Shown: positions 30,401-58,598 of the stretch, one piece after another
Layout: the number at the start of each line of letters is the position of its first letter
Numbering within the stretch: the first letter of the stretch is position 1
IMG/VR virus record: IMGVR_UViG_3300042691_010023
Coordinates: 1-64,000 of that record
Reading direction: 5' to 3' (one strand)
Source: a virus
Length of the DNA: 64,000 nucleotides
Notes under the pieces: model-generated
What the model saw: only the letters and a program-made list of their open reading frames with translations
Told to the model about the DNA's origin: nothing
Databases searched by the model: none
Made by a program: the position numbers and the translations under genes

Positions 30401-30567
30401 TATTAGATTCTGATAACTTAAACAGTATGTATATGTTGTTTGATTATCTTAAAAGTCAGTTCGGTTTTGTGCTTTGTATATCACATATAGATGCAATGCG
30501 CGATGTTGTAGATAAACTTATTGAAATTAAAAAAGAACATGGCTATTCTAAAATAGAATTTTCTTGA
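27421..30567 (+). CDS. Fused gp47-gp46 (Mre11-Rad50/SbcDC) recombination nuclease
   Basis: A 1,048-residue protein joining two proteins that are separate in T4. Residues 1-350 are an Mre11/SbcD-type phosphoesterase: HIADVHVRN (D19, H21), YVAGDIVH, TGNHDCN, ALHHGAV and LLGDIHKMQ. Residues 375-1048 are a Rad50/SbcC-type ATPase: Walker A PNASGKST (405-412), coiled coils flanking a zinc hook CQYC (723-726), a signature near TSGMEKF (about 958), and Walker B with LAIDEGFG (986-993). The complex resects DNA ends for recombination-dependent replication and host DNA breakdown. I see no frame break between the halves. Confidence 0.9.
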   Translation: MRTIDIGIKEIDKIYHIADVHVRNVKRHKEYEQVFKRLYKYIQKTYTNNSIIYVAGDIVHAKTDMSPELVATVSDFFKNLADIAPTIIITGNHDCNLNNSSRLDAITPIVNALNHPNIHYLKDTGIYEASNVHFNVMSVFDSPINFIKASEFEGNYKIALHHGAVNSAQTDLGIILSNTHVTTDLFAGHDLVLLGDIHKMQYLDSERTIAYAGSLIQQNFGEGLIHGILVWDLKSKTSEFVEIDNDYGYCTLEIDNGTVVTQLPKVPKKIRLRLKVKDTDASVLKRLVSELRKQYNVQDVTIQKVNALTSTATGKKISFGNVRDVEWQNKVITDYLSDELALDDAMLDCVRHINRTVHSKLSESDITRNKIWLPKTFEFSNMFSYGEDNHIDFEQLSGTYGLFAPNASGKSTLLDALAFCCFDKCSRTGKAIHVLNNKKNQFKSKFCFEMDGVDYVIERNGRKNNNGHVKVDVDFYYMDDVGNTVSLNGDQRDNTNKIIRQYLGDYEDFVLTALSLQTNNTGFIDKSQKERKDLLSQFLDINVFEQQYQIASDDIRDTSALIREYKRLDHSATLSEADQIIDHVTKKYDSLTDEKNTLEKLRDDLNDQVIELTKELRTIPDNVSDPSIHESNIKTINEQCKNADCSFESLQQDYFDAESAYEALVSQIDQINIDSLNSKDSNFNIYKNQISEVRNAMQIKQHEIEHARKMLSKLENHQWDPNCQYCVANPWLQDTQVAANRLPELRDEMITLTTTLRDTERSLTETDVKDQISKYYELQRELNTKATKKNSAAAALQTISNKITQLQNSLTSENELLIKANACLTDIEFNKTQNSDISELRTEVASVSQEIRDLESEIVEMSGKLSIAKRSKQTAEDAINRLSELEVQYKGYEYYLQAVKRDGVPYQLIARALPQIEAEINNILTQVVDFTMILNTDGKNIHGYIVYDDDNYWPLELTSGMEKFISSLAIRASLINVTSLPRPNFLAIDEGFGVLDSDNLNSMYMLFDYLKSQFGFVLCISHIDAMRDVVDKLIEIKKEHGYSKIEFS

Positions 30568-30574
30568 TATTTAT
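30567..30574 (+). promoter_or_regulatory. ATATTTAT intergenic element, copy 8
   Basis: ATATTTAT followed by AATAAATCAAGGA, 19 nt before the ATG of the giant fibre gene. Confidence 0.5.
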
Positions 30575-30593
30575 AATAAATCAAGGAATTTTA

Positions 30594-33500
30594 ATGCCGT
30601 TACGTAAAAAAATAGGATACGTTGGACTCAAAGATTTAAGATATAGTGTAATTGATACCGATTTAGTATCTCGTGACTATTTTAATATTGTTGAGTTTCC
30701 TAGTCGACTTACAGCAGGAAAAAATCTTATTAAATTAAGAGCTAATCCAGATAATTTAGTAGACCGTAGTCAAATTCATATAGAAATTTTAGATTTTAAC
30801 GGAGACCCTATTTATTATGAGCCGTTAAATTATACTGAAAAAGACGGCACACGTGTTATTGCAATTTATATATACCCTGATACTGCGCCGGGTAGAGCTG
30901 TTGTATATTTAGCAGGTCGTACGGCTATCGATGCAAATACAGGCGATCGTTATAGTTTTAGTAGTGATTATAATGATCCTAATTATTTAAATACTCCCAA
31001 TTTAATTTGGACACGTTCTGTAGCTGTAGCCCCAAATGCACGTAACAAGTCAGAAATTATTTTTACAAAATATCCGAAAGTTACATTATCAGAAGTAGTA
31101 CAACCATACCTACAACCAGCAGAATTATATAATGTATATACTCAGGTTACAGGGTCAGGTACAGTACGTATAGAACCTATAGGAGTGCCTACGCCTACAT
31201 ACGGAGTCGGCACAGCGACATATGCAACAGAAGCTAGGTCTTCAGTCGAAGGAGCTGGATCTCCTAGAACTCCAGCATTCGGTACACAGTTTTTTAATAC
31301 AGCTCCTAACGAACTTGCATTACGCGAATCTACTGGCAGTACTTCGACATCTCCAGTATTAACTACATTAACCGGATTTAGTAAGTTAAGAACTTCTGGA
31401 TTTGCATTAAATGCTAATATGGTCGGTGGTATTATTGAAATTGTTAATCCAAATATAATACCGGAAGGAACTGCCGAACGTGGCGTAACATTATCGTTTC
31501 CATTAGATAACGGGTTTTTGTTACCCGTGTCACAACGTAATGATTTAACTACAATTGGAAGTGTAGTATCCGCAGGGCAAGCTACTCCACTTAGTGGGTC
31601 ATATAAATTTGCTATTTCACAAATTGTTAATAGTAGTACTGCAATAGTTAGTCAGATTGAAGGATTTCGTAATCCGACAGACAATACTAATGGGCCATGG
31701 TCAGTAGAATTAACTACTATAGGCGGAATACCGAATGCTATAACAACTATTAGTGCATCTGCCAATTTTACAGCTAGTTATACGCAACCATCTGTATTTA
31801 CACAAACGCAACGTAGTTCTAGTTTTGGTGATATAATTTTATCTGATATTGAACCAGTTACTGGTGATGTGTATAAAATTAAAACATTATATAAGCCATC
31901 GGGATTTTTTGGAGATTTTATAGACCTGGGCGATACTATATTAGAACAACAAAACATTTTAATAGATACTGGTTCGTATGAAACTAATATTGCTGTCGGG
32001 GCTGATTATGAACGATATGGATCATTTGAAGACTTAGCTGAAATTGAAAAATATTGGACTACGGCTAGTATATCTAGTTCCGGAGCTCCTGTTAATTTAT
32101 GGTACCCATTTAAATATAATGATACAATATTGATGGGTGGGGCTGAATTATCCATGTCATATAGTACCGGTGTTAGTCCGCAAGGCTTAGATGGATTTAA
32201 TATTGGGGAAGCTGCAGTATTTTCAATTAATCCTATATACGCGCCATTAGTATATGCTGATACTGAATATATAGTTAAATTTACTATAGCAAACAATACT
32301 AATGCCGCTTCTATAATGTCTGCAGATACTAATCTGCCTAATCATCGCTTAGATGTATATATATCAGGATCAAATGTATTAGTTGATAAAGAGTTGATTA
32401 ATGTACAATTCGGAGATATATTTACAGTACCTAATTTTACAAATACTATAACAGGCGAGTTTAGAGATAACGGGCCATTAGGATATAGAATTGGTACATA
32501 CCAAACAAAGCCAGTACCCGAAGCTTTAGCTAATGTACAATTTAAATTTAAAGCTTTAGAGACTAAACCTATAGACTTAAAGTTTGTAACTAGAAACGGC
32601 TCATTTATTATTGCAGATATAGAACTTATTGTTAATAAAGAAACTGGATTTTCTCCTAATTTTACACGTGTTTTCAAACGAGTGCCATCGGAACATTTAG
32701 ATACACCTTTAACATTTAAATTTCAGTTTTTTGACTATGAAAGTAAAAAAGCTGAAATGGAAGTAATTACGTATGGTGCTATATTTTACGGCGATAATAC
32801 GTATATACAAGGTACTAATAATCTTATAACCGGGTCTGTTTATTTAAGTAGTGGTATTGGTAGTGGTATAGAACAGTCGGGTCAAAATTCGGGATATATA
32901 AGATCAGTTGGGTATAAAGGATTTTTATCGGCTTCTATACCCGAACTTAGTGGTTCTCCAGGCTTTATGCTATGGTCTGGATCTGTAATACCCGGATCAG
33001 GTGACAATTATACCGGCGTAGGTTTAGAATTAGTAGCTGACGCTAATAACTATTTAATGTTTCGTACAGGGCCGCCTAGCGTTTTCATTGTACGTACTGA
33101 CTCATTTTTCTTAGGAAATGCTAATCAATTTATATCTGGAGCTAATGGTAATATTGAAATATCATCTAGCGGATTTCATTTAAATACTGATGGTAGTGTT
33201 ACGGCATCGAGTGCTTTATTTAAAGGTGTTGCTAAAGCTAATATTATCTTAGATAAAACTATAACAATTGATGCCGATAATAGCGGTAGTTATTTGCAAT
33301 ATGAAAATGATATTCTTCCAGCAAGTCTTATACCTCTAGAGGGTTATCGAGTAGTATTAGATGGTACATTGGGTGGAGAAATTATACGTAGATTTAGAAT
33401 TGATTGTCAATTAAACTATCCTATATTTGATTTTAAATTACCCGACGTATCCGGCGAAGCTAAGTTAGATATTGTAATGGAAAATGCTATAGCAGGCAAT

Positions 33501-36500
33501 CAAGTGTACGATGCATTTTCCCCTGCCGGCAAAGGAAGTGGAGTCACCATAACCGATTATCCAATAGTTACATTACGTACTGAAGATGTATTAACGTTTG
33601 TTGCTGCAAATGCTAACGCTAACGATTGGTATGCAATTGCAGGTACATTGCAGCCGTTTTCTGGTTACGAATTTAAACGCGGAGTTGATGTATATAATAC
33701 ATTTTTAGTTACAGGATCTAATAGTCGAATACGATTTAGAGACGACGATGGCGTTCTGCAATTTGAAGTTCGAAGAGGCACGACTGGAGACTTTGCGGAT
33801 AAAACACAAATTACTATTAACGATATACCGGCAATAGATTCGTTAGATCCATCAGACTACAATGTAGTTATTCGTAGACTTAGTAACGGTCGTCTATACG
33901 AAACATCATCGTTGGCATTTGGCGGTGGCGGTGGCGGTGGAGGAGATGTAACTGATGTAAATGCTGGATTGGGTATATCTGTAGATACACCTGGCGGTCC
34001 GGTTGTTGAAGTGAGTTTAAATACTGCATCAGCACATTTCCGTAACGGAGTATTTAAATTAACCGGCAGTTTACTTACAACCGAATCGTTTAATACATGG
34101 ACCGGATCTAACCTTAGTCAATTTGCAGGTACGGCTTCGTTTGCTACAACTGCGTCATATGTGACAGGTTCAATCTATAACAGTTCAAATTTAGCATTAA
34201 GTGCTTCGTATGCAATAACAGCAAGCTATGCATTAAATGCAGGAACGTCAACGCCGGCTCCTAGTGATACATTTATTCAATATAATCAAGGCGACATATT
34301 TGGCGCTAGTGAGTATTTTAGATATCAATACATCTCACAGAGCTTACTACACGGTAATGAGGTAAGTGCGTCCGGAGAGTTTTCATTTGCTCACGGCTCG
34401 AGTTCGATAGCATTAGGTCCGTATTCACATGCAGAGGGACGTGAAAATGAGTCTTTTGGTAAAGCAAGTCATACCGAAGGATATAGAAGTAGAACGTACT
34501 ATCCAGGAGCTTTCTCAGGATCATTAACAAATGGTACAGGTAGCTTACTGAGTTATTATGCAAATGTCGCCTCAGCATTCACTGTAGGTAATACATTCAT
34601 TCTTAAAACTGTAGCAGAGGAATTTGCAACTAACCAGATAGCCACTATAACTTCTGCATCCTACGATCCAGGAACAGGTCAAACATCGTTCTATTTGGAT
34701 GCTCCAATTGGCGGCGGAGATTCTATTCTAGTAATAGATACTGGACTATGGGGGTGGGATGATTCCACTACTTCGCCATCCGGAGTTCCTGTCATTGCCA
34801 GCGCTGGCAATCAAAACATTGGCGGAGATGGAGCTCACGCTGAAGGATTCTTGACAATTGCATTTGGTTCATTATCGCATGCTGAAGGTTACGGAGGCCA
34901 GGCTATAGGAGCATTTGCGCATGCTGAAGGAGTTAATACGATTGCATATGGTCTCATAAGTCACGCTGAAGGAGATGGCACTTTTACAGTAGGTGCAAGT
35001 TCACATGCTGAAGGTACTGGTACGCAGACTTGGGCTGACTATTCACATGCCGAAGGCAATGCTACTAAAACATTTGGTACTGCAGCAGGATCACATGCCG
35101 AAGGTAAAGAAACAGTAACTATTGGTCAATATTCGCATGCTGAAGGAGTTAATGCTCGGTCAATTGGATATGCATCACATGCTGAGGGTACTGGCCGTTC
35201 TGGTACATTGTATTTATACTCGGCATCTTTAAGTACAGATAATTCATCTCCTCCGGGCGGAGTAGCTATAGTGACATTGGCATCGTCATACGGCAACGTA
35301 ACATCAAAATTTACAGTAGGAAATTATTTATATTTTAACGGTACTCCTACTACTATCGGCAACACCCCAGCACTCAGTAATTACGTAGAGGTATCTCTAG
35401 CACGTATCACATCAGTTGTATGGAACAATCCGGTTACTATAATTACTTTAGGCGACGCATCAGCTAATGGTGTTGATCTTCTATATCAAGCCGCAATTGT
35501 TAATGTTGCACCATATAATCCAAGCGCAGGATTAAATACATGGATTCAGCCAGACCCTGATGTCGCAGGCACCCCATACGGCAATGATTCTAATAGTCCA
35601 TGGGCTGGCGATCAAATTGGTAATAGCAACGGTGCGCATGCTGAAGGGTTAGATACATTAGCGATTGGTCAATATTCACATGCTAGCGGTCAAGGATCAG
35701 TGACATTAGGTAATTATTCTCAAGCTAGTGGATACTATACCATGGCTATAGGTCAACATGATCATGCGGAAGGGTTTGCGACAAAAGCTATTGGGTATGG
35801 GGCACATGCTGAAGGAATACGAACAATTGCCATGGATACGTCGCATGCTGAAGGATATGAAACAACTGCTATCGGCAGTGGACACTCGGAAGGCCAGGGT
35901 ACATATGCCGCCAACAGCGGCCATGCGGAAGGTTATTATACACGGGCTGTAGGTGTAGCTGCTCACTCAGAAGGAGGTTATACCACCGCATCAGCAAATT
36001 ATTCTCACGTGGAGGGGGGCTATACCAAAACATATGCCACTTATGCGCATGCGGAAGGATCTGGGTCAATTGCTGGTAACATTGGTGGTGCTGGAATAGC
36101 TTCACACGCTGAAGGAGTATTCACACAGACAACAAATATAGGAGCTCATTCCGAAGGAAGATATACTACCGCATCAGGTATATATTCACATGCTGAAGGA
36201 AGTAGTTCCGTAGCATTCGGTACGGCATCACATGCTGGAGGTTTACATACAATAGCATCAGCATCTTATGCTACAACAATAGGTCAATACAATAAGCATA
36301 ACAATACAACTGCTTTATTTACAATAGGTGACGGCGCTAGTAATACAGATAGGCATGATTTATTAAATGCTGGAATTGGGTATGTTCAAATATCCGGATC
36401 TGCTGTAGTGTCAAGTAGCTTGGAAACAATAGGACTTTCAAGAGTTACCGGATCAATGATTGTATCTAATAGTTTACAATTGATTGGTATCGGTATAGTT

Positions 36501-39317
36501 ACAGGTTCGTTTATTATATCTAGTAGTCTTAATACAATAGGTCTTAATATAACAACAGGCTCAGCTATTGTATCTAGTAGTTTTACTGTTATAGGAACTA
36601 GTACAGTAACTGGATCTAATGTTATTACCGGTTCATGGACGTTGATCGGTGACGCTCAATTGACAGGATCAATATACCTGTCAGGTTCAATAATAATGAA
36701 TAGCCTAACGGCATCAATATCCGGTGTTGATTATATTGATTTTGATACGCAGTATCGTGTAGGAACGAATGAACCTGCTTGGAAAGAAGGTAGATTGTTT
36801 TATGATAGTGGATCAGGAGCATTATCTTTCTATAATTGGGAGCAAGATGTTACTTTAAACATAGGACAAGAACAATGGTTAAGAGCTAGAAATCAAACTG
36901 GAGTTCCTATCCTTAATGGGACAGTTGTTAGATTGTTAGGAGCAATAGGTGATAGACCTACTGTTGAACCAGCTCAAGCCACAGACCAAACCAATACTTT
37001 TAGTACGGGTAATGAAATCATTGGTATGGCTACTCACGATATTGAGAATGGCACTGATGGATTTATTACTACCTTTGGTTTAGTAAATGGATTAAACACA
37101 GATGCTTTTAATGCTGGAGATTTGTTATGGGTATCACAAACAGCAGGTGAATTTACTAATGTAGCTCCACCTCCTCCATATGACAGAACATTTGTAGGTA
37201 TTGTAACAAGAAAAAATCCAAATAACGGAACAGTATTTTTAACACCACTTACTCCTATACACTTCCATGATATATCATCAGTTTCTGCCTCAGTATACCA
37301 ACAAGGTGATTTATGGATGTATCGTTCAGGTAGTGCAGGTCAAGCTAATGCGTGGATTAACACAAAACAATTAAGTGGTAGTTACGGAATAACTGGTAGT
37401 TTAAATGTTTTAGGAAGTATAACAGGATCATTTACGGGTTCTTTAACCGGTAGTTTGTTTGGTACCGGTAGTTGGGCGTTTAGTGCTTCTGTTGCAATAT
37501 CTGCATCATATGCATTATCATCTTCATATGCTATAAGTAGTAGTTACGCGGTATCATCGTCATATGCTGTTAGTTCTAGCTATGCAGAATCTGGATCATA
37601 TTCTGTTAGCTCTAGTTATACTGTATCTAGTTCTTATTCCATATCATCTAGTTATGCTGTATCTAGTTCTTATTCTGTATCTTCATCATATGCAGAGTCC
37701 GGCTCGTATGCATTATCATCTAGTTATGCAGTATCTAGTAGTTATTCGTTTAGCTCTAGTTACGCAGAATCTGGGTCATATTCTGTTAGTTCAAGTTATG
37801 CTGTATCTAGTTCATATGCAATTAGTTCTTCATATGCTATAAGTAGTAGTTATGCTGTATCATCTAGTTACGCCGAATCTAGCTCATACGCCGTGACGTC
37901 ATCATATATTGATCCACTCTTTATATCAGCATCAGCAGCCTTTTATGGCTTTGGTGCTGCAGGAGCACCTGCCGGCGGCGATATAACTGATGTAAATCCT
38001 GGATTAGGTATTTCTATAACTAACTCGGCCGGTCCGGCACCTGAAGTAAGTTTAAATACAGGATCAACGCATTTTGCATTAGGTGTATCTGCATCAGCAG
38101 CATCTTACGGCTTTGGCTCTGGCATAGGCAATGTATTTCCGTATACAGGGCCAGCAGTTATATCAGGTTCATTACTTATAAGTGGATCGGGATTAGTAGT
38201 TACTGGCTCTATACAATCTACCGCAGGATTTACTGGTAGTTTATTTGGAACTTCAAGTTGGGCACATTCGTCATCGGTTGCAATATCTGCATCATATGCA
38301 TTAACTTCAAGTTATAGTATATCATCATCTTATGCCGTTACAGCATCGTATGCTTTAACTAGTTCATATGCAGTAACTAGTAGTTATTCAATTTCGTCAT
38401 CGTATGCAATTAGTGCCTCATATAGTATAAGTAGTAGTTATGCAGAATCTAGTTCATATGCAATTAGTTCTTCATATGCTATAAGTAGTAGTTATGCTGT
38501 ATCATCTAGTTACGCCGAATCTAGCTCATACGCTGTTAGTTCATCATATGCAGTAACATCATCATATATCGATCCGCTCTTTATATCAGCTTCAGCTGCA
38601 TTTTACGGATTCGGAGCAGCCGGCGCTCCTGCAGGGGGGGATATAACAGATGTTAATGAGGGACTAGGAATAACTATAACTAACTCGGCTGGTCCAGCCC
38701 CGACAGTGACCTTGAATACAGGATCAACGCATTTTGCATTAGGCGTATCTGCGTCAGCTGCATTTTACGGGTTTGGTGCTGGGACAGGTAATGCATTCCC
38801 ATTTAATGGTAATGCAGTAATTACTGGTTCGTTAATAGTATCTGGAACGACTAATGGATTTAGTGGTATTACTGGTAGTTTATTTGGAACTTCAAGTTGG
38901 GCGTTTAGTGCTTCTGTTGCAATATCTGCATCATATGCATTATCATCTAGCTATGCAGAATCAAGTTCGTACGCATTATCATCTAGCTATGCTATTTCAT
39001 CGTCATATGCATTTAGCTCGTCTTATAGTTTAAGTAGTAGTTATGCCGAATCTAGTTCATATGCAATAACAGCTAGTTATGCTACATTTGCAGAATTCTT
39101 AGTAGAAGCTACATCTTCATTATTAGGAGATAATAGCGCTACTAGTTTTAATGTAAATCACGGATTTAATACTAGAAATTTACATATTACAGTGTATGAG
39201 GATTCAACGGGCGAAACGGTTTATCCAGATATAAGAAGAATAAATGCAAATACAGCTAGTATTATATTTGCTAACCCGCCACTCACAGCACAATATGTAG
39301 TATATATATCAATATAA
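30594..39317 (+). CDS. Giant mosaic tail fibre, 2,907 residues
   Basis: The ATG at 30594 has an AAGGA ribosome site; a TTG at 30564 precedes the element and is unlikely. The N-terminal 1,150 residues are beta-rich structural domains. A Gly run (about residue 1112) leads into fibre modules. Residues 1275-1890 hold many YadA-head-like HAEG repeats (SHAEG...A.G). A globular insert follows near 2040-2240. Three blocks of SSYA-type pentads (SSYAVSSSYAESSSYAIS) at about 2290-2440, 2550-2660 and 2760-2830 are separated by GGDITDVN-type domains. It is a trimeric-looking adhesin or long tail fibre; the distal end has no visible chaperone peptidase. Confidence 0.85.
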   Translation: MPLRKKIGYVGLKDLRYSVIDTDLVSRDYFNIVEFPSRLTAGKNLIKLRANPDNLVDRSQIHIEILDFNGDPIYYEPLNYTEKDGTRVIAIYIYPDTAPGRAVVYLAGRTAIDANTGDRYSFSSDYNDPNYLNTPNLIWTRSVAVAPNARNKSEIIFTKYPKVTLSEVVQPYLQPAELYNVYTQVTGSGTVRIEPIGVPTPTYGVGTATYATEARSSVEGAGSPRTPAFGTQFFNTAPNELALRESTGSTSTSPVLTTLTGFSKLRTSGFALNANMVGGIIEIVNPNIIPEGTAERGVTLSFPLDNGFLLPVSQRNDLTTIGSVVSAGQATPLSGSYKFAISQIVNSSTAIVSQIEGFRNPTDNTNGPWSVELTTIGGIPNAITTISASANFTASYTQPSVFTQTQRSSSFGDIILSDIEPVTGDVYKIKTLYKPSGFFGDFIDLGDTILEQQNILIDTGSYETNIAVGADYERYGSFEDLAEIEKYWTTASISSSGAPVNLWYPFKYNDTILMGGAELSMSYSTGVSPQGLDGFNIGEAAVFSINPIYAPLVYADTEYIVKFTIANNTNAASIMSADTNLPNHRLDVYISGSNVLVDKELINVQFGDIFTVPNFTNTITGEFRDNGPLGYRIGTYQTKPVPEALANVQFKFKALETKPIDLKFVTRNGSFIIADIELIVNKETGFSPNFTRVFKRVPSEHLDTPLTFKFQFFDYESKKAEMEVITYGAIFYGDNTYIQGTNNLITGSVYLSSGIGSGIEQSGQNSGYIRSVGYKGFLSASIPELSGSPGFMLWSGSVIPGSGDNYTGVGLELVADANNYLMFRTGPPSVFIVRTDSFFLGNANQFISGANGNIEISSSGFHLNTDGSVTASSALFKGVAKANIILDKTITIDADNSGSYLQYENDILPASLIPLEGYRVVLDGTLGGEIIRRFRIDCQLNYPIFDFKLPDVSGEAKLDIVMENAIAGNQVYDAFSPAGKGSGVTITDYPIVTLRTEDVLTFVAANANANDWYAIAGTLQPFSGYEFKRGVDVYNTFLVTGSNSRIRFRDDDGVLQFEVRRGTTGDFADKTQITINDIPAIDSLDPSDYNVVIRRLSNGRLYETSSLAFGGGGGGGGDVTDVNAGLGISVDTPGGPVVEVSLNTASAHFRNGVFKLTGSLLTTESFNTWTGSNLSQFAGTASFATTASYVTGSIYNSSNLALSASYAITASYALNAGTSTPAPSDTFIQYNQGDIFGASEYFRYQYISQSLLHGNEVSASGEFSFAHGSSSIALGPYSHAEGRENESFGKASHTEGYRSRTYYPGAFSGSLTNGTGSLLSYYANVASAFTVGNTFILKTVAEEFATNQIATITSASYDPGTGQTSFYLDAPIGGGDSILVIDTGLWGWDDSTTSPSGVPVIASAGNQNIGGDGAHAEGFLTIAFGSLSHAEGYGGQAIGAFAHAEGVNTIAYGLISHAEGDGTFTVGASSHAEGTGTQTWADYSHAEGNATKTFGTAAGSHAEGKETVTIGQYSHAEGVNARSIGYASHAEGTGRSGTLYLYSASLSTDNSSPPGGVAIVTLASSYGNVTSKFTVGNYLYFNGTPTTIGNTPALSNYVEVSLARITSVVWNNPVTIITLGDASANGVDLLYQAAIVNVAPYNPSAGLNTWIQPDPDVAGTPYGNDSNSPWAGDQIGNSNGAHAEGLDTLAIGQYSHASGQGSVTLGNYSQASGYYTMAIGQHDHAEGFATKAIGYGAHAEGIRTIAMDTSHAEGYETTAIGSGHSEGQGTYAANSGHAEGYYTRAVGVAAHSEGGYTTASANYSHVEGGYTKTYATYAHAEGSGSIAGNIGGAGIASHAEGVFTQTTNIGAHSEGRYTTASGIYSHAEGSSSVAFGTASHAGGLHTIASASYATTIGQYNKHNNTTALFTIGDGASNTDRHDLLNAGIGYVQISGSAVVSSSLETIGLSRVTGSMIVSNSLQLIGIGIVTGSFIISSSLNTIGLNITTGSAIVSSSFTVIGTSTVTGSNVITGSWTLIGDAQLTGSIYLSGSIIMNSLTASISGVDYIDFDTQYRVGTNEPAWKEGRLFYDSGSGALSFYNWEQDVTLNIGQEQWLRARNQTGVPILNGTVVRLLGAIGDRPTVEPAQATDQTNTFSTGNEIIGMATHDIENGTDGFITTFGLVNGLNTDAFNAGDLLWVSQTAGEFTNVAPPPPYDRTFVGIVTRKNPNNGTVFLTPLTPIHFHDISSVSASVYQQGDLWMYRSGSAGQANAWINTKQLSGSYGITGSLNVLGSITGSFTGSLTGSLFGTGSWAFSASVAISASYALSSSYAISSSYAVSSSYAVSSSYAESGSYSVSSSYTVSSSYSISSSYAVSSSYSVSSSYAESGSYALSSSYAVSSSYSFSSSYAESGSYSVSSSYAVSSSYAISSSYAISSSYAVSSSYAESSSYAVTSSYIDPLFISASAAFYGFGAAGAPAGGDITDVNPGLGISITNSAGPAPEVSLNTGSTHFALGVSASAASYGFGSGIGNVFPYTGPAVISGSLLISGSGLVVTGSIQSTAGFTGSLFGTSSWAHSSSVAISASYALTSSYSISSSYAVTASYALTSSYAVTSSYSISSSYAISASYSISSSYAESSSYAISSSYAISSSYAVSSSYAESSSYAVSSSYAVTSSYIDPLFISASAAFYGFGAAGAPAGGDITDVNEGLGITITNSAGPAPTVTLNTGSTHFALGVSASAAFYGFGAGTGNAFPFNGNAVITGSLIVSGTTNGFSGITGSLFGTSSWAFSASVAISASYALSSSYAESSSYALSSSYAISSSYAFSSSYSLSSSYAESSSYAITASYATFAEFLVEATSSLLGDNSATSFNVNHGFNTRNLHITVYEDSTGETVYPDIRRINANTASIIFANPPLTAQYVVYISI
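34420..36330 (+). repeat. YadA-head-like HAEG coding repeats
   Basis: About two dozen degenerate units encode (S/A)HAEG followed by a variable stretch and another H. The bases CATGCTGAAGG recur almost unchanged. The repeats build left-handed beta-roll modules in YadA-type adhesins. The region includes two longer inserts (about 34500-34800 and 35190-35620). Confidence 0.75.
37805..37891 (+). repeat. Exact 87-bp direct repeat, first copy
   Basis: Bases 37805-37891 are identical, base for base by eye, to 38447-38533. The repeat encodes SSYA pentads inside the giant fibre gene. Flanking bases differ on both sides. Confidence 0.85.
38447..38533 (+). repeat. Exact 87-bp direct repeat, second copy
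   Basis: Second copy of the 37805-37891 repeat, offset by 642 bp, which is a whole number of codons. Recombination between copies would delete or duplicate 214 residues in frame. Confidence 0.85.
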
Positions 39318-47190: not shown

Positions 47191-48765
47191 ATGTCTCAAA
47201 AATCGTTAAAAGAAATTATAGCAGATGAGTATAAAAAATGTGCCACTGACCCGGTACATTTTATGAAAAAATATTGTATTATTCAACATCCTACCAAAGG
47301 AAAAATATACTTTCATTTATACCCATTCCAAGAAGATGTTTTGCGTAATATGCAAAACAATAGATATTCGGTTATATTAAAATCTCGACAATTAGGTATT
47401 TCTACATTATCTGCAGGATATGCATTATGGTGCATGTTGTTTAAACAAGACTTTAATATCTTAGTATTAGCTACTACTCAAGACGTTGCTAAAAACTTGG
47501 TAACTAAAGTACGTGTAATGCACGAAAATTTACCTATCTGGTTAAAAGGTAAGTCGATTGAAGATAATAAATTGTCGTTACGTTTTAAAAACGGATCACA
47601 AATTAAAGCCGTTTCTAGTACAGGCACATCAGGTCGTTCTGAAGCATTATCATTACTAATTATTGATGAGGCTGCATTTATACGTAACATTGAAGAAATT
47701 TGGAAATCAGCTCAGCAAACATTGGCAACCGGTGGAGGATGTATTGCATTATCGACACCTAACGGTACAGGTAATTGGTTTCATCAAACATGGGTAGATG
47801 CAGAATCAGGCGGGCAATTTAAGCCAATTAAACTACACTGGACGGTACATCCGGAACGTGATGAAAGTTGGCGTATAGAACAAACGGAGTTGTTAGGTGA
47901 AAAGGGAGCTGCACAAGAATGTGATTGTGACTTTATTTCATCTGGACATACTGTTATTGATGGTCCTATACTGCAATGGTATGATCAAACATATATTAAA
48001 GATCCAATCGAACGTAGAGGATTTGATGGTAATTATTGGATATGGGAATATCCAGACTATTCAAAAAATTACGCAGTAGTAGCTGACGTAGCTCGAGGCG
48101 ATGGTTCTGATTATTCTGCATTCCATGTAATCGATGTAGATAATTTAACACAAGTAGCAGAATATCGTGGTAAGATAGGTACTACAGAATACGGTAACAT
48201 GTTAATGTCAGTAGCTACAGATTATAATAATGCGCTGTTAGTTATAGAAAATGCCAATGTCGGTTGGGCCGTTATCCAAGTTGTAATTGATAGAGGCTAT
48301 AGTAATTTATATTATTCATATCGACAAGACGCTTATATAGACGAAAATATACATCTTACTAAGGGATATGATCTTAAAAGTAAGTCAGACATGGTACCAG
48401 GATTTTCTACAACTAGTAAAACACGTCCATTGACCATTTCAAAATTAGAAACGTATTTACGAGAAAAAAGTCCGGTTGTACGAAGTAAACGTTTGTTAGA
48501 TGAGTTGTTTGTATTTATATGGAACGGTTCTAGGGCAGAAGCACAACGTGGATATAATGATGATTTGGTAATGTCATTCGCTATAGCATTATGGATACGA
48601 GACACGGCATTACGTCTCAAACAACAAGGTATGGACTTATCACGTAAGGCATTAAATCATTTCGGAAAGACTAATCCAGGAGTGTATACAATATCACCTC
48701 AACAACATCAAACATGGACATGGAAAACTCCTGGCGGAGATGAAAGTTTAACCTGGCTGACCTAA
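47191..48765 (+). CDS. 17: Terminase large subunit gp17
   Basis: A 524-residue protein with the packaging ATPase motifs SRQLGIST (Walker A-like, 65-72) and LLIIDEAA (Walker B, 155-162), then the nuclease core AVVADVARGDGSDYSAF (D299) with an acidic VIENANVG strand further on. It pumps DNA into proheads and cuts concatemers at packaging ends. It is shorter than T4 gp17 (610). No gp16-like small subunit is evident in the window. Confidence 0.92.
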   Translation: MSQKSLKEIIADEYKKCATDPVHFMKKYCIIQHPTKGKIYFHLYPFQEDVLRNMQNNRYSVILKSRQLGISTLSAGYALWCMLFKQDFNILVLATTQDVAKNLVTKVRVMHENLPIWLKGKSIEDNKLSLRFKNGSQIKAVSSTGTSGRSEALSLLIIDEAAFIRNIEEIWKSAQQTLATGGGCIALSTPNGTGNWFHQTWVDAESGGQFKPIKLHWTVHPERDESWRIEQTELLGEKGAAQECDCDFISSGHTVIDGPILQWYDQTYIKDPIERRGFDGNYWIWEYPDYSKNYAVVADVARGDGSDYSAFHVIDVDNLTQVAEYRGKIGTTEYGNMLMSVATDYNNALLVIENANVGWAVIQVVIDRGYSNLYYSYRQDAYIDENIHLTKGYDLKSKSDMVPGFSTTSKTRPLTISKLETYLREKSPVVRSKRLLDELFVFIWNGSRAEAQRGYNDDLVMSFAIALWIRDTALRLKQQGMDLSRKALNHFGKTNPGVYTISPQQHQTWTWKTPGGDESLTWLT

Positions 48766-48787: not shown

Positions 48788-50683
48788 ATGGCAGACACTT
48801 CATTACAGGCCAGATTAAAACGGCTATTTTCTACTAATGTAATTGTAAGACGTATCGCTAAAAATCGTTTAAAGGCGGTTGATACAAATAGGTTACAATC
48901 TAACGGCTCATTATCTAGTAACAGTTATATCGATAGATTTACTGGATTACATAGAGGTCAGTCAGGTTATGCTACATATAACCAAACATACAATTTTCAT
49001 TCTTCTAAACTAGAATTGTTTACAGATTACGAAGCTATGGATATGGATCCTATTATAGCATCGGCATTAGATATTTACGCAGACGAATCTACAGTTAAAA
49101 ATGCAGAAGGTGATACATTATCAATTTCTACATCTAACGAAGAAGTTCGTAAAGTACTGCATAATTTATTTTACGATATTATTAATATTGACTATAATCT
49201 ATGGCCATGGGTACGTAATGCGTGTAAGTACGGCGATTTCTTTTTACATTTAGATATTGAAGACGAATTAGGGGTTATTAACGTAACTCCATTATCAGCA
49301 TACGAAGTTCGTCGTGAAGATGGATATGATCCAGAAAATCCATATGCATATCGATTTATACTCGAAGGTCCTAGTGGTACATATGCTAATTTTGCCGGTA
49401 AGCCTAACCGTACTGAATTTGAAAGTTTTCAAATGGCACACTTTCGTTTGTTATCTGATACAAACTTCTTACCGTACGGTAAGTCAATGATCGAGTCAGG
49501 ACGTAAATTGTTTAAGCAATTGTCATTAATGGAAGATGCGATGCTTATTCAACGTATTATGCGTGCCCCAGAACGTCGCGTTTTTAAAATTGATGTAGGT
49601 AATATTCCACCACATGAAGTAGATAACTATATGAACCAAATCATGAGCAAGATGAAAAAGGTTCCATATATGAATGAACAGACAGGTGACTACAACCTTA
49701 AGTTTAATCTGCAAAACATGATGGAAGATTATTATCTGCCAGTTCGTGGCGGAGAGTCTGGTACTGCAATTGATACATTAGCTGGATTAACTAATGAAGG
49801 CCAAATTGAAGATATTGAATACTTACGTAATAAATTGCATGCTGCATTAAAGATACCTAAAGCATTTTTAGGATATGATGAGGGAGTAGAAGGTAAAGCT
49901 ACATTAGCAGCTGAAGATGTACGTTTTGCTCGTACAATTGAACGTATTCAAAAAATATTTGTATCTGAATTAACTAAGATTGCAATCGTTCATTTATATG
50001 CACAAGGATTTCGTGATGAAGATTTGATTGGGTTCTCATTAGAACTAAATAATCCTTCGTTGATTTATGAAAAGCAACAATTAGAATCTTTAACTACAAA
50101 AGTAGAATTGGCAGGTAAATTACGCGAATCGCAATTGTTTTCGGAACAATGGATTTACGAAAACATATTTGGTATGACTGAGTATGAATGGAAGTCTCAA
50201 CAAGATAATGTAATAGAAGATCTTAAAACTCAGTTCCGTCGCAAACAAATTGCTGATGAAGGTAATGACCCTAAAAAGACAAATATGAGTTTTGGTACTC
50301 CGCATGACATTGCATCAATGCACGTAGCTACCAAAGGAGAATTGTTGCCAGGTATGGAACAGGAACATGTTGCTGGCCCTGGACGTCCTAAAGATATTAG
50401 TACATGGGGTAAGCATTCTAGTCCGCATGGACGTGATCCATTAGGTGCTAAACAACTCGGAGCTACATTCAATAACAGTCCTAAAACAGATCCGTTGCAA
50501 CATACATTTCGTAAAAGTTCTCCATTAAGCATAGAATCGATTGAGTCTAAAGCATTAATTAAAACATTGAATACTAAATTTAAAAGTTCTAGTATAATAC
50601 AAGAGTCGTTAGATAAAAGCGCTGTCGATCCAGATGCGGGTACATTATTAGACGAATCGCAATTATTATCACTAAATGACTAA
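48788..50683 (+). CDS. 20: Portal vertex protein gp20
   Basis: A 631-residue protein of the gp20 family: the N-terminal SGYATYNQTYNFHSSKLEL region, the YFDIINIDYN-like and WPWVRNACKYGDFFLHLDIE segments, and the helical LRNKLHAALKIPKAFLGYDE core. The dodecameric portal nucleates the prohead and forms the DNA channel. The C-terminal 100 residues are Ser/Pro-rich and extend beyond T4 gp20 (524). Confidence 0.92.
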   Translation: MADTSLQARLKRLFSTNVIVRRIAKNRLKAVDTNRLQSNGSLSSNSYIDRFTGLHRGQSGYATYNQTYNFHSSKLELFTDYEAMDMDPIIASALDIYADESTVKNAEGDTLSISTSNEEVRKVLHNLFYDIINIDYNLWPWVRNACKYGDFFLHLDIEDELGVINVTPLSAYEVRREDGYDPENPYAYRFILEGPSGTYANFAGKPNRTEFESFQMAHFRLLSDTNFLPYGKSMIESGRKLFKQLSLMEDAMLIQRIMRAPERRVFKIDVGNIPPHEVDNYMNQIMSKMKKVPYMNEQTGDYNLKFNLQNMMEDYYLPVRGGESGTAIDTLAGLTNEGQIEDIEYLRNKLHAALKIPKAFLGYDEGVEGKATLAAEDVRFARTIERIQKIFVSELTKIAIVHLYAQGFRDEDLIGFSLELNNPSLIYEKQQLESLTTKVELAGKLRESQLFSEQWIYENIFGMTEYEWKSQQDNVIEDLKTQFRRKQIADEGNDPKKTNMSFGTPHDIASMHVATKGELLPGMEQEHVAGPGRPKDISTWGKHSSPHGRDPLGAKQLGATFNNSPKTDPLQHTFRKSSPLSIESIESKALIKTLNTKFKSSSIIQESLDKSAVDPDAGTLLDESQLLSLND

Positions 50684-53567: not shown

Positions 53568-54173
53568 ATGAACAAACAATTATTAATAGATTATAATGTA
53601 TTTGAAGTAACGCCTCAACAAATAAACGAATCGTTAGCTAATAACGGGGGTCGTTTAATTGTACAAGGAGTACTTCAACGTGCTGAAGCTAAGAATCATA
53701 ACGGACGTGTTTATCCAATGGAAACATTGATGCGTGAAGCTAAAAAGTATAATGAAAGTTATATAACAGAGCGTCGTGCATTAGGAGAACTAGATCATCC
53801 AGATTCTTCAGTTGTTAATTTAAATAACGTTAGTCATAACATTTTAGAAATGGCTTGGCGTGGCAAAGATTTAGTAGGTACTGTAGAAGTACTTCCTACA
53901 CCTGCAGGTAATATACTTAAAGCATTATTCCAATCAGGAATTAAATTAGGTATTTCATCGCGCGGTTTAGGTTCAGTAAAAGAAGTAATGCGCGAAGCAG
54001 GTAGTGCAATGGAAGTACAGCCTGACTTTGAATTGATAGCATTTGATTTTGTTAGTAACCCTTCAACACATGGAGCATTTTTATCTCCAGTAAATGAATC
54101 GGTAGACAAAACAATGAACACAAAATATAATAATATTAATCGTTTAATTTCAGAAATTATAAGGGAGTTTTAA
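53568..54173 (+). CDS. 21: Prohead core protease gp21
   Basis: A 201-residue serine protease of the T4 gp21 (peptidase U9/S77) type: GRLIVQGVLQRAEAKNHNGR, then RALGELDHPDSS (catalytic H77) and IKLGISSRGLGS (catalytic Ser at 130/131). Length matches T4 gp21 (212). It cuts scaffold and capsid proteins after (L/I)xE during head maturation and then itself. Candidate targets are noted at several genes here. Confidence 0.92.
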   Translation: MNKQLLIDYNVFEVTPQQINESLANNGGRLIVQGVLQRAEAKNHNGRVYPMETLMREAKKYNESYITERRALGELDHPDSSVVNLNNVSHNILEMAWRGKDLVGTVEVLPTPAGNILKALFQSGIKLGISSRGLGSVKEVMREAGSAMEVQPDFELIAFDFVSNPSTHGAFLSPVNESVDKTMNTKYNNINRLISEIIREF

Positions 54174-54452: not shown

Positions 54453-54812
54453 ATGAAAAGTTTAAAAGATAAATATAATCAACTATTTAATGGTAAGCCT
54501 ATGTCTAATGACAAAGGGCTGATCAAAGAAAGTTTTGGTAAGGCTGGTATTGCTACTGGTAAACGTACTGTTAATGAAGCAGAGCCTGGTTCTGATCGTC
54601 GTAAAGAATTTCAATCGCAACTAGATGAAATTATGAACATGTTGGGAGACTTAACTGACGAATTTGGATATGAATTGGAAATGACTGCTGACGCAGAAGG
54701 TTTACCAGAATATCGTCAATGGCTTACGCAGTTAGGACGTTATTCATCAGCTGCAGAAAAAAATCTTAAAGGTCTTGGTAAGATAATTAAACAAGCTTAC
54801 GGAGGTTTATAA
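54453..54812 (+). CDS. Small head-cluster protein
   Basis: A 119-residue protein: basic N-terminus with possible protease sites (LIKESFGK, RTVNEAEPG) and a helical, acidic C-terminal half (LDEIMNMLGDLTDEFGYEL). No family is recognised. Overlap with the next gene implies coupling. Confidence 0.55.
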   Translation: MKSLKDKYNQLFNGKPMSNDKGLIKESFGKAGIATGKRTVNEAEPGSDRRKEFQSQLDEIMNMLGDLTDEFGYELEMTADAEGLPEYRQWLTQLGRYSSAAEKNLKGLGKIIKQAYGGL

Positions 54813-55228
54813 TGTCTAAGCATTGGGAAACGAAAATGTTGAAAAACATTTTAAATGAAAAGTATCTTCGCGAAGAAGAAGATGATATGCCCGAAATGAC
54901 TAAAGAAGATAAAAAGGCTTTTTTAGAAGCAGTTTCTAATTATCATCGTTTGGGCGAAATGATTTATCGTGCCAACACGTTAAAAGAAGTTGCTAGTACA
55001 TTAGGCGGTATTGTTGAAATGGCTGAAAATGTAACATTACAAGAATCAGAACATTGGTTTGATAATGTAACAGTTTCTCGTCATATGAAACAATTGCAAG
55101 AGGCTTATAAAGTATTTGAAAAGACTGCCGGTGAAATGTCAGGTATGCAACAGCGTTTAGAAGCTGCTTATGAAGATATCGGTACAGTACTTAACAAGTA
55201 TTATAAAGTAAATGAGGCATTGAAATGA
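54812..55228 (+). CDS. Helical head-cluster protein
   Basis: A 138-residue helical, acidic protein (YHRLGEMIYRANTLKEVA). Its N-terminus (WETKMLKNILNEKYLREEE) resembles the short leaders seen on neighbouring head genes. Its role is unknown; a core or scaffold accessory is plausible. Confidence 0.55.
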   Translation: MSKHWETKMLKNILNEKYLREEEDDMPEMTKEDKKAFLEAVSNYHRLGEMIYRANTLKEVASTLGGIVEMAENVTLQESEHWFDNVTVSRHMKQLQEAYKVFEKTAGEMSGMQQRLEAAYEDIGTVLNKYYKVNEALK

Positions 55229-55461
55229 AAGCAATAGAATTTAAAAAACTAATCCGCGAAGAAGTTCGTAAGGTATTAAAAGAAGCATATCGTAAACCAG
55301 ATGACAATTTAGATATTCTAATTAAACTACTTAAGCGTAAAAAAGTAAACGAGGTAGTAGAATTACTTGAAACAGTTAAAGAGGGATTAGAATTTGATGA
55401 TTTAGCTACAGCTCTTGATGAAGCTATAGAAAATCTATTAGACGATGGTGGGCTGGATTAA
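55225..55461 (+). CDS. Small helical protein with IREE start helix
   Basis: A 78-residue acidic-basic protein whose start (FKKLIREEVRKVLKEAY) matches the helix repeated in several small genes. The remainder is helical and acidic. It overlaps its upstream neighbour by 4 nt (ATGA) and ends the gene block before the bS21 unit. Confidence 0.55.
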   Translation: MKAIEFKKLIREEVRKVLKEAYRKPDDNLDILIKLLKRKKVNEVVELLETVKEGLEFDDLATALDEAIENLLDDGGLD

Positions 55462-55496
55462 GTAAAGACTAATAATATAATTAATTGATATTATTT

Positions 55497-55525
55497 TTGT
55501 TTTTGTAAATTAAAGTTATTATATT
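55497..55525 (+). promoter_or_regulatory. Sigma70-like promoter for the bS21 gene
   Basis: TTGTTT at 55497, a 17-nt spacer and TATATT at 55520-55525, with the extended -10 GTTATTATATT at 55515. The TTG-to-G distance is 18 nt, identical to the ClpP-like and primase promoters. The predicted leader is short (about 15 nt). Confidence 0.65.
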
Positions 55526-55546
55526 GTATTAAATTAAACAAGTTAT

Positions 55547-55804
55547 ATGAATTACATGAATAAAAAACAAAAACATTTTGAGAGTATCATTCCAGGTACT
55601 CCTAATGGTACTCGAGTAGTGCGTGTAAATGATCGTGCTGATTTATCATTTGCATTGCGTCGTTGGAAGAAGCAATTGAAGGATGGTAAGGTTTTAGAAC
55701 AATTGAAAGACCGTACTTATTTTGAAAAACCTAATGTAACGCGTCATCGACAAAATGAACGTGCATTGTTTTTAGCCCAACGTGCTACTGAACGAAATTC
55801 TTAA
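55547..55804 (+). CDS. rpsU: Ribosomal protein bS21 homologue
   Basis: An 85-residue protein with the bS21 signature: TRVVRVNDRADLSFALRRW, KDGKVLEQLKDRTYFEKP, then a basic tail (RHRQNERALFLAQRA). bS21 binds the 30S platform near the anti-Shine-Dalgarno end of 16S rRNA. Phage copies may swap into host ribosomes and alter which messages start. The gene has its own promoter and terminator and no clear ribosome site; a second in-frame ATG lies at 55556. Confidence 0.85.
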   Translation: MNYMNKKQKHFESIIPGTPNGTRVVRVNDRADLSFALRRWKKQLKDGKVLEQLKDRTYFEKPNVTRHRQNERALFLAQRATERNS

Positions 55805-55822
55805 ACTAAGAAAAGTTTAAAT

Positions 55823-55850
55823 GAAAAGGTGTCTTTACGGCACCTTTTTT
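55823..55850 (+). terminator. Intrinsic terminator after bS21
   Basis: AAGGTGTC (55826-55833) pairs with GGCACCTT around a short loop (TTTAC), and a T-run follows to 55850. It separates the bS21 unit from the scaffold/capsid unit. Confidence 0.8.
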
Positions 55851-55891: not shown

Positions 55892-56000
55892 TTTGTTATA
55901 CGATACTGTATTAGTCTAATATACAGTCACTCAACAATATTTAATCTATCTATTAAGATTACCAATAATCTTATTTCCGAATTTAATAAGAGGAGAACTC

Positions 56001-56867
56001 ATGAACAATCTGTTAAAAGAAGCAATCGCAGATGCTAAAGCCGTGCGCGAAACAGCAATGGCGAATGCTAAGATTGCATTAGAAGAGGCATTCACTCCAC
56101 GTCTTCAAAGTATGTTATCTGCTCGTTTAGCTGAAGAGGCTGAAGAGGATACAATGGAAGAAGAAGAGGAAGAAATGGAAATGTCTACTGAAGGCTACGA
56201 AAACGACGAAGATGGTACACCAGATCCAGGTCCAGCTATCGAAGAAGAAGAGGAAGGATCTGAAGATTTAGATCTTGAATCTATCATTCGTGAATTGGAA
56301 GGCGAAATGGAAGAACCTACCATGGAAGAAGAGGAAGAAGCTGATGCTGAAGTATCAGTAGAACCTGCCATGGAAGAGGAAGAAGATGTTAACATCGAAG
56401 AAATCATTCGTGCACTTCGTGAAGAAGATGATGAAACCGAAGAAGAGCCAGTAACTGAAGGTGAAGATGAAGATGAAGACCCAGTAGCCGAAGGCGAAGA
56501 GGAATCAGAAGATCTTAAAGAAGCTTATCGTGTTATTCGCTTTATGAAGTCTAAGCTCAACGAAGTAAACCTTCTAAATGCAAAATTGTTATTTTCAAAC
56601 AAATTATTTAGAAACTATTCTTTAAATGAATCACAAAAGATGAAAGTTATTGAAAACTTTGATCGTGCCGCTTCAATCCGTGAAGTAAAATTAGTTTATA
56701 GCACTTTATGTGAATCATTTGGTAGCGTAGTCGCTAAGAAAAAACAACAAATTAAAGAAAGCTATGCTTCAAAGCCTGCCGGCAAATCTACAGCTCCTAA
56801 GAAAGAAATTCTTAGCGAAGGATTTGAATTGGCAGCTCGTTGGAAGAAATTAGCTAATCTTAAGTAA
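56001..56867 (+). CDS. 22: Prohead scaffold core protein gp22
   Basis: A 288-residue, extremely acidic protein: helical N-terminus (LLKEAIADAKAVRETAMAN), long Glu/Asp tracts in the middle, and a basic helical C-terminal third. ILSEGF near residue 271 fits the protease cut preference, as expected for a scaffold that gp21 degrades. Its place directly before gp23 matches T4. Confidence 0.85.
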   Translation: MNNLLKEAIADAKAVRETAMANAKIALEEAFTPRLQSMLSARLAEEAEEDTMEEEEEEMEMSTEGYENDEDGTPDPGPAIEEEEEGSEDLDLESIIRELEGEMEEPTMEEEEEADAEVSVEPAMEEEEDVNIEEIIRALREEDDETEEEPVTEGEDEDEDPVAEGEEESEDLKEAYRVIRFMKSKLNEVNLLNAKLLFSNKLFRNYSLNESQKMKVIENFDRAASIREVKLVYSTLCESFGSVVAKKKQQIKESYASKPAGKSTAPKKEILSEGFELAARWKKLANLK

Positions 56868-56888
56868 AAAAAACAAAGAGGAATCAAA

Positions 56889-58598
56889 ATGAATTTAAAT
56901 TCTTTATTACCTCATGAAGCACAAGCTACCCAGCATTCAGCAGCTTTAGCCCTTGAAAAGAAGTGGCAGAAGACTGGTTTGTTGGAAGGCATTGCTAATG
57001 AGAATGACCGTCGTGGTATGGCCGTACTTTTGGAAAACCAAGCAAAACAATTGGTAACAGAAGCTAACGCTACTACACAAAACCAAGCTAACGCTGAGCA
57101 ATGGGCTGGCGTAGCTTTACCATTGGTACGTCGTATCTTTGCAGAAATTGCTGCTAAAGATTTTGTTAGCGTTCAACCAATGAATCTTCCATCAGGACTC
57201 GTGTTCTTCTTGGATTTCAAATATGGTACTGCACAAGGTACCAATGGTTTTGGTAATTCAACCGGTAATGACTTTTTAACTGGTCAAGGCCGTACATCTC
57301 AGAATGATTCTGTGTTCGGTGTTACTGATGCAGATCGTGGTACTAGTGCTCCTAGCGAAGGTCTTTACGGCGCTGGTCGTTTTGGTTATACCATTAACGA
57401 CGTTAATGCTGTATTACCTGCCGCAGATTTTAATACTGGATCATATAATCCATTTACCAATACATTTGCTCAATTGAGTAGGAATTTGAACGGTGCAGAG
57501 TTAGATATATTTACTAATTTTAATTCTGAATTTTCTGCATCTGCAGCGGTTGGGTTGAAAACATTCCAAGTACTTCAAGTAGCTACTGGATCAGCTACTG
57601 GTTTATCTAATGCAGATTTAAAAGGCGTACGTGCATTTAACGTATCAGGTTCTGGATTTACTACCATGTACCCAGAATTTACTACGACAAAAGGCGCTTA
57701 TATTTACTTCTTAGTAGAAACTAATGCAGCTACTCCAGTAATTCCAGTTGCAGCTAACTCAGTAGAAGTTGTTTACCATAAGCAGCCAAATGATCAAACT
57801 CGTGGTGACTTTGAAGATAATGATGGCTCATCTACTGCATTAAGCATTCCAGAAATTAATTTGGAACTTCGTAGTGAAGCTATTGTTGCTAAGACACGTA
57901 AGTTAAAGGCAGTATGGAGTCCTGAATTTGCACAAGATCTTAATGCTTATCATAGCATTGACGCTGAAGCAGAATTAACTAGCATGTTGTCAGAATACAT
58001 TTCACAAGAAATTGATCTTGAAATCTTAGACATGTTGATTCAAAACGCACAAACGACCGAGCGTTGGTCTGCACAAATTGGGTATGTTTTTGATCCGTCA
58101 ACTAACACATTTATCAACGGTGCAGCTGCAGGTCAAGCTTATAATCAAGGTACTTGGTTCCAAACTCTTGGAACTAAAATCCAAAAAGTGAGCAATAAGA
58201 TTCACCAATTGACTATGCGCGGTGGAGCAAACTTCTTAGTATGTTCTCCATCTGTAGCAACTATCCTCGAATCTATTCCAGGATATGCTGCTGATACAGA
58301 CGGTGATAAGATGCAGTTTGCGATGGGCGTACAGAAGATTGGCGCTATTAATAGCCGCTTCCAAGTATATAAGAATCCATACATGACTGAAAATACAATC
58401 TTGATGGGTTATCGTGGTAGCCAGTTCTTGGAAACAGGTGCAGTATATGCTCCTTATGTTCCATTGATCATGACACCATTAGTGTACGATCCGACTAACT
58501 TCACTCCACGTAAGGGTGTAATGACTCGTTACGCGAAGAAAATGTTACGTCCTGAATTCTATGGTAAAGTATATGTACACGCTCTCAACCGTGTATAA
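56889..58598 (+). CDS. 23: Major capsid protein gp23
   Basis: A 569-residue protein. Residues 1-58 form a propeptide ending LVTE, so cleavage before A59 matches the T4 gp23 E65/A66 site. The body has the HK97-like fold features of gp23 (WAGVALPLVRRIFAEI, SGLVFFLDFKYG, KLKAVWSPEFAQDL, FTPRKGVMTRYAKKML). The usage of favoured codons is consistent with high expression. An intrinsic terminator follows. No separate vertex gp24 is present in the window. Confidence 0.95.
   Translation: MNLNSLLPHEAQATQHSAALALEKKWQKTGLLEGIANENDRRGMAVLLENQAKQLVTEANATTQNQANAEQWAGVALPLVRRIFAEIAAKDFVSVQPMNLPSGLVFFLDFKYGTAQGTNGFGNSTGNDFLTGQGRTSQNDSVFGVTDADRGTSAPSEGLYGAGRFGYTINDVNAVLPAADFNTGSYNPFTNTFAQLSRNLNGAELDIFTNFNSEFSASAAVGLKTFQVLQVATGSATGLSNADLKGVRAFNVSGSGFTTMYPEFTTTKGAYIYFLVETNAATPVIPVAANSVEVVYHKQPNDQTRGDFEDNDGSSTALSIPEINLELRSEAIVAKTRKLKAVWSPEFAQDLNAYHSIDAEAELTSMLSEYISQEIDLEILDMLIQNAQTTERWSAQIGYVFDPSTNTFINGAAAGQAYNQGTWFQTLGTKIQKVSNKIHQLTMRGGANFLVCSPSVATILESIPGYAADTDGDKMQFAMGVQKIGAINSRFQVYKNPYMTENTILMGYRGSQFLETGAVYAPYVPLIMTPLVYDPTNFTPRKGVMTRYAKKMLRPEFYGKVYVHALNRV

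Follow-up and report, generated by a model that had tools for sequence, protein, structure and literature searches.

The window, a stretch of 64 kb out of a 67,916-base virus record, carries a T4-like myovirus head module in which the Gp20 portal, S77 protease and Gp23 capsid genes are present in order on the plus strand. The large-terminase family gene (47191..48765) was assigned by its position beside the portal and by synteny with the Flavobacterium phage immuto (TerL then portal). It is followed on the same strand by the T4-like portal Gp20 (48788..50683; PF07230, E=6.5e-79), the prohead core protease of family S77 (53568..54173; PF03420, E=4.3e-26), a conserved head-module gene (54812..55228) with the Shine-Dalgarno (SD) sequence CGGAGG at 54800-54805, and the gene for ribosomal protein bS21 (55547-55804). 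Next come an acidic scaffold/core-like protein (56001..56867) with the strong SD GAGGAG at 55990-55995 and a Bacteroidota-like promoter TTG-N22-TATATTTG (from 55863) upstream, the major capsid protein (MCP) Gp23 (56889..58598; PF07068, E=1.3e-77) with AGAGGA at 56877-56882, and, from 58692, PhoH. The bS21 gene is thus surrounded by portal, protease, capsid and PhoH, in agreement with a sequence-only reading of this DNA that had placed it among head genes. The tail region of the window contains an ORF of 2917 aa (30564-39317; 2908 aa from an inner ATG).

Sequence comparison identifies the ORF at 55547-55804 (85 aa) as a true bS21 gene, the homologue which that reading had called clear. Residues 25-73 match PF01165 (Pfam; E=2.8e-10, 40.2 bits against a cut-off of 27), the PHROG ‘ribosomal protein S21’ is matched at E=2.8e-8, and structure matches include the F. 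johnsoniae bS21 chain 7JIL (E=1.9e-4). Translation may start at 55547 or at 55556, the second Met being the start in several orthologues. In an alignment of window-type bS21 with 48 bS21 of the Bacteroidota phylum, the consistent difference between the window clade and the sampled Bacteroidia proteins was an N-terminal extension, basic and roughly 20 residues long, present in the phage protein and absent from those of the Bacteroidia. Position 54 (F. johnsoniae numbering) is Phe in the window and in L003, and Tyr in the close relatives L011, L012, L014, L016, L018, L019, L020 and L025.

A putative promoter of the bS21 unit is located at 55496..55525 (plus strand), with TTTG at 55496-55499, a spacer of 20 nt and TATATT at 55520-55525; identical boxes with the same spacing occur 5' of bS21 in L003, L011, L014, L016, L018 and L025, and promoter activity is predicted. 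The leader (55526..55546, plus strand) comprises 21 A/T-rich nucleotides without an SD, and its AAGTTAT end abuts the start codon. Behind the gene, an intrinsic terminator (55823..55850, plus strand) is formed by an 11-bp stem (55823-55833/55839-55849), a TTTAC loop and a T-run; the hairpin at 55823-55849 has a folding energy of -13.4 kcal/mol (z=-4.9), and none of the shuffles was equally stable. A generic sigma-70/terminator scan of the window called neither the bS21 promoter nor the terminator, both of which rest on comparison with relatives and on folding. The terminator is conserved in L003, where the bS21 orthologue is 94% identical, and the whole block of leader, bS21 and terminator is kept there in the absence of the ORF found upstream in the window (55225-55461), which supports an autonomous unit. 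The sequence-only reading had proposed an own promoter, a strong terminator and a start lacking an obvious ribosome site, and all three proposals held: the TTTG/TTG-N20-TATATT form recurs before bS21 in relatives and is strongly enriched in a Flavobacterium phage, the hairpin is both stable and conserved, and the duplex of the leader with the anti-SD reaches 0.0 kcal/mol, compared with -9.4 kcal/mol for the next gene.

The cultured-phage capsids nearest to the window MCP are those of the Microcystis phage Mel-JY01 (59% identity) and of immuto (58%). About 50 of 80 IMG/VR capsid relatives carry bS21 just 5' of the capsid gene and immuto lacks bS21 from its whole genome, so that bS21 belongs to the core of many such phages but not of every one. 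In an enlarged set, bS21 lies on the strand of the head genes in 66 of 66 loci that carry it. A tblastn search with bS21 over the phage collection was too insensitive, missing the bS21 of Mel-JY01. Mel-JY01 (PP395634, L002/L091) has its bS21 in the same protease-capsid slot as the window, with Lys at position 54 and the SD AAGGA in the leader, whereas the window protein has Phe and its leader no SD. The recorded host of Mel-JY01 may deserve a check; its close relative G012 (L190-L195) contains exact Bacteroidota-type promoters, TTG-N19/20-TATATTTG. The conserved gene just 5' of bS21 (54812-55228) was considered as a bS21 partner, comparable to the neighbour gene of Chen 2022, and rejected, as it is present in 39 of 43 loci with bS21 but also in 11 of 18 without.

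SD use was assessed for each gene as the best duplex of the leader (-20 to -3) with the 16S tail ACCUCCUUUCU in comparison with shuffled leaders, an SD being called at -4 kcal/mol or better. In the window 56% of 54 genes have an SD against 17-18% in shuffles, while the figures for immuto are 8.7% and 11.5%, with AAGGA in 0 of 160 leaders. Across 137 related head-module loci, the SD fraction is 0.66 in the 66 loci with bS21 versus 0.17 in the 71 without, and the mean excess over shuffles is 0.38 versus 0.08; an earlier set of 66 loci gave means of 0.65 and 0.175 (p=6e-9). Phages without bS21 (8.5% SD, 10.4% shuffled) resemble SD-blind Bacteroidia hosts. The difference extends to matched genes: loci with and without bS21 have SDs on 98% (of 54) versus 9% (of 68) of MCP genes, 86% versus 17% of protease genes, 74% versus 4% of PhoH genes and 93% (of 54) versus 49% (of 71) of genes of the scaffold/core-like family. 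Exceptions are L092, which has bS21 without SDs, L382 and L383, which have weak SDs only, and nine loci without bS21 that show some SD excess.

These observations show that SD use tracks bS21 presence across related head modules. The best tree contains six changes of bS21 state, four of them supported, and in random pairings over the four supported contrasts SD use changed in the same direction in 2.4 and in the opposite direction in 0.2; with only four to six resolved changes an independent-pairs test cannot reach significance, though the direction is consistent. The suggestion made from the sequence, that a phage bS21 might shift translation in favour of phage messages, is a sound reading and gains genomic support from the fact that SD use follows bS21; as a general hypothesis it had already been published. 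Late genes of the window clade carry SDs, and host genes of Bacteroidia are at the shuffled level.

The bS21 gene itself departs from the SD use of its neighbours. Of the 53 bS21 leaders from outside a Mel-like group, 51 lack an SD, in loci where 67% of the other genes have one. Such leaders occupy at least three kinds of setting: in the window clade they follow the early-type promoter, in L049, L084 and their relatives a terminator-like hairpin precedes them, and in L079 and L086 another gene lies a short distance upstream. In the Mel-like group 12 of 12 bS21 leaders have an SD, as do genes across the whole contig, which is expected if the host uses SDs. The property is not unique to bS21, since the TerL and portal families are likewise SD-less: the terminase-family gene of the window has no SD (5% of 19 loci with bS21 have one in this family), and the portal is among the few SD-less genes of the late module (9% of 35). 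An AGTTAT-type end (55540-55546 in the window) is found in 16 of 53 phage bS21 leaders outside the Mel-like group against 6 of 781 other genes, and could be an initiation or regulatory signal. In L049, L051, L053, L054, L056 and L084, a hairpin TACACCTATC...GATAGGTGTA with a T-run, preceded by ATATTTATA, lies about 20-60 nt 5' of bS21; this terminator-like structure may serve as an attenuator or may close the preceding unit.

Host rpsU has an exceptionally strong SD (McNutt 2023, PMC9976891), and the ribosomes that translate it are those without bS21. In many of the sampled Bacteroidia-type genomes its SD reaches -16 to -17 kcal/mol among SD-less genes, and the extended SD of autoregulated Bacteroidota rpsU (below -13 kcal/mol) is absent before the window bS21. 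Phage bS21 is the inverse of host rpsU, an SD-less gene among SD genes as opposed to a gene with an extreme SD among SD-less ones.

Two promoter classes are associated with different SD use. Genome-wide, TTG-N20-TATATT was found 23 times in immuto (0.2 expected), 15 times in G016 (0.3 expected) and seven times in G007 (0.2 expected), and it is also enriched, with small counts, in G006 and G005. We regard it as a probable early-type promoter. The second motif, TATTTATA, is likely the late promoter; it is enriched on the coding strand 5' of genes throughout the clade. The 68-kb record has 18 copies in that orientation, and window examples lie before 58692, 59391 and 61796. TATTTATA is the reverse complement of T4's TATAAATA. 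On contigs with bS21, 15% of genes behind TTG-N20-TATATT (n=54) have an SD versus 55% behind TATTTATA (n=132; p=6e-7), a contrast that may be partly structural, since in some early genes the leader is short enough for promoter and SD zone to overlap; the values for phages without bS21 are 3% and 0%. In G005, the 95-kb contig nearest to the window, 69-70% of structural genes and 28-29% of the rest have an SD. G005 and G016 show this early/late contrast clearly and G006, G007 and G012 do not show it, so that at the level of whole genomes it is only partial. Two further repeats were seen: near-identical promoter cassettes (TTGCATAGTATATCCGATACCCTTATCTTTGCACTAT) before many small genes at about 81-92 kb of G008 (L189), and a strongly repeated intergenic sequence, GGCCCTCAAGGTG with variants, in G016 (L196-L204).

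The TTG-N20-TATATT promoter serves as a host marker. The canonical Bacteroidota promoter TAnnTTTG was tried for this purpose and discarded, being enriched neither in the window clade nor in immuto, whose host is Flavobacterium; TTG-N20-TATATT, shared with immuto, a phage of the same clade as the window, is the useful marker instead. Across 40 Bacteroidota-phylum genomes, position 54 of bS21 is Tyr (18) or His (1) in those of Bacteroidia type and Arg in 21 of 21 others. Genomes with Tyr54 show no SD use (10.2% versus 9.9% shuffled; 19.3% versus 19.4% in 80 Bacteroidales loci), and those with Arg54 show slight use (28% versus 19% shuffled at GC below 0.5). Phage bS21 has Tyr or Phe54 in the window and L079 clades and Lys or Arg54 in the Mel-like group. 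Together, promoter and residue point to a Bacteroidia host for the window clade.

An aromatic residue at position 54 helps to hide the anti-SD in the host, and in F. johnsoniae the bS21 change Y54A or loss of the C terminus leads to more SD-led translation (PMC9976891). The idea that phage bS21 has lost the anti-SD-hiding Tyr54 was rejected for the window clade, where Tyr or Phe is kept, and holds for other groups; the simplest mechanism, freeing of the anti-SD by Tyr54 loss, therefore does not fit the window with its Phe. We propose that phage bS21 converts SD-blind host ribosomes to SD-dependent initiation on late messages, a model to which we give an even chance. Since the bS21 message is SD-less and has an early-type promoter, unmodified, SD-blind host ribosomes could make the phage protein. 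It would then replace host bS21 in the small ribosomal subunit, with a role for its basic N-terminal extension, and ribosomes carrying it would release the anti-SD and shift from SD-blind to SD-using initiation. Late SD-bearing messages (capsid, scaffold, protease) would be favoured after conversion, and synthesis of phage bS21 should fall once ribosomes are converted. Entry of a phage bS21 into E. coli ribosomes has been observed (PMC6375957), whereas incorporation here, anti-SD release, timing and the role of the extension are parts that the model would require. The link of SDs to bS21, the SD-less bS21 leader, and TTG-N20-TATATT together with Tyr/Phe54 were counted in its favour. The fuller version, in which the phage reverses the host initiation rule through its own bS21, giving late genes SDs, exempting bS21, portal and terminase and forming a self-limiting switch, we hold tentatively, at slightly under even chances.

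The main rival to conversion is a difference between hosts. Phages with bS21 might infect unsampled SD-using bacteria, in other Bacteroidota classes or beyond, and those without it SD-blind Bacteroidia, bS21 being an SD-neutral helper lost on the move to Bacteroidia. The Mel-like group, with SDs throughout, SDs on all 12 bS21 leaders and Lys/Arg54, fits this explanation, and some Arg54 genomes of the Bacteroidota phylum do use SDs (L252, 0.47 versus 0.15 shuffled). We nevertheless find it less likely than conversion for the window clade, whose bS21, like that of the L079 clade, has Tyr/Phe54 against Arg in 21 of 21 sampled genomes not of Bacteroidia type, and whose TTG-N20-TATATT promoter is common to a Flavobacterium phage. 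Nor would an SD-using host require early-promoter genes of the same phages to be mostly SD-less, and the SD avoidance by 51 of 53 bS21 leaders is left unexplained.

Shared ancestry is a poorer candidate. SD use and bS21 could both be ancestral and have been lost together in few lineages for unrelated reasons, with bS21 acting as a general translation boost, as Chen 2022 proposed, and SD choice unaffected. Both traits are indeed strongly clustered on the tree (5-6 bS21 changes against 16-46 in shuffles) and only four to six changes are resolved, but the matched-gene effect is very large (MCP, 98 versus 9%), the supported contrasts run nearly all one way (2.4 against 0.2, of 4), and the lack of an SD before bS21 forms a specific pattern; we consider this explanation improbable. 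A role of phage bS21 off the translating ribosome, e.g., as an RNA-binding virion head component or a decoy, would suit its place inside the head module and an earlier suggestion of virion packaging (PMC9723584), but is highly improbable given the conserved bS21 core, the separate SD-less, promoter-driven unit in place of head-operon expression, and the ability of phage bS21 to enter ribosomes (PMC6375957).

Takeover of the ribosome by phage bS21, steering translation late in infection, has already been proposed (Chen 2022, PMC9723584), and the general hypothesis also appears in Mizuno 2019 (PMC6375957) and McNutt 2023 (PMC9976891). The Bacteroidetes myophages of Chen 2022 resemble the window in having bS21 within a terminase-portal-protease-capsid module, predicted Bacteroidetes hosts and an aromatic side chain at position 54, which is Phe in the window and in one of their phages. 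Their bS21 is encoded on the reverse strand, with expression judged to be late, while here it follows the head-gene strand and, in the window clade, stands behind an early-type promoter; their genomes measure about 293-331 kb, and the 67,916-base record is probably a fragment. The main text of that study is silent on SD use by phage genes. Autoregulation of host rpsU in Bacteroidia (McNutt 2023) likewise connects bS21 with the anti-SD and with whether SD or SD-less messages are chosen, with the opposite arrangement of SDs. Mizuno 2019 also describes phage bS21, of pelagiphages and others with different hosts, and makes no mention of Shine-Dalgarno sequences. The rpS21 of huge phages (Al-Shayeb 2020, PMC7162821) has a basic N-terminal extension as in the window and prompted a ribosome-takeover proposal, but there SD loss correlated with rpS1-like genes, whereas here SD presence goes with bS21. 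In a literature search that covered few subscription journals, no earlier description came up of SD use that follows phage bS21, of an SD-less bS21 leader or of the inversion relative to rpsU, and these three observations may be new.

bS21 is by far the commonest ribosomal protein gene in phages (McNutt 2023). Its link to SD use turns the general idea of a ribosome hijack into a prediction, namely that phage bS21 changes the ribosome's use of SD pairing, for which suitable F. johnsoniae reporters already exist. If true, this would mean that viruses make specialized ribosomes and that an SD/SD-less code separates host from phage messages, and it would be a warning against the use of SD motifs alone as a predictor of phage hosts.
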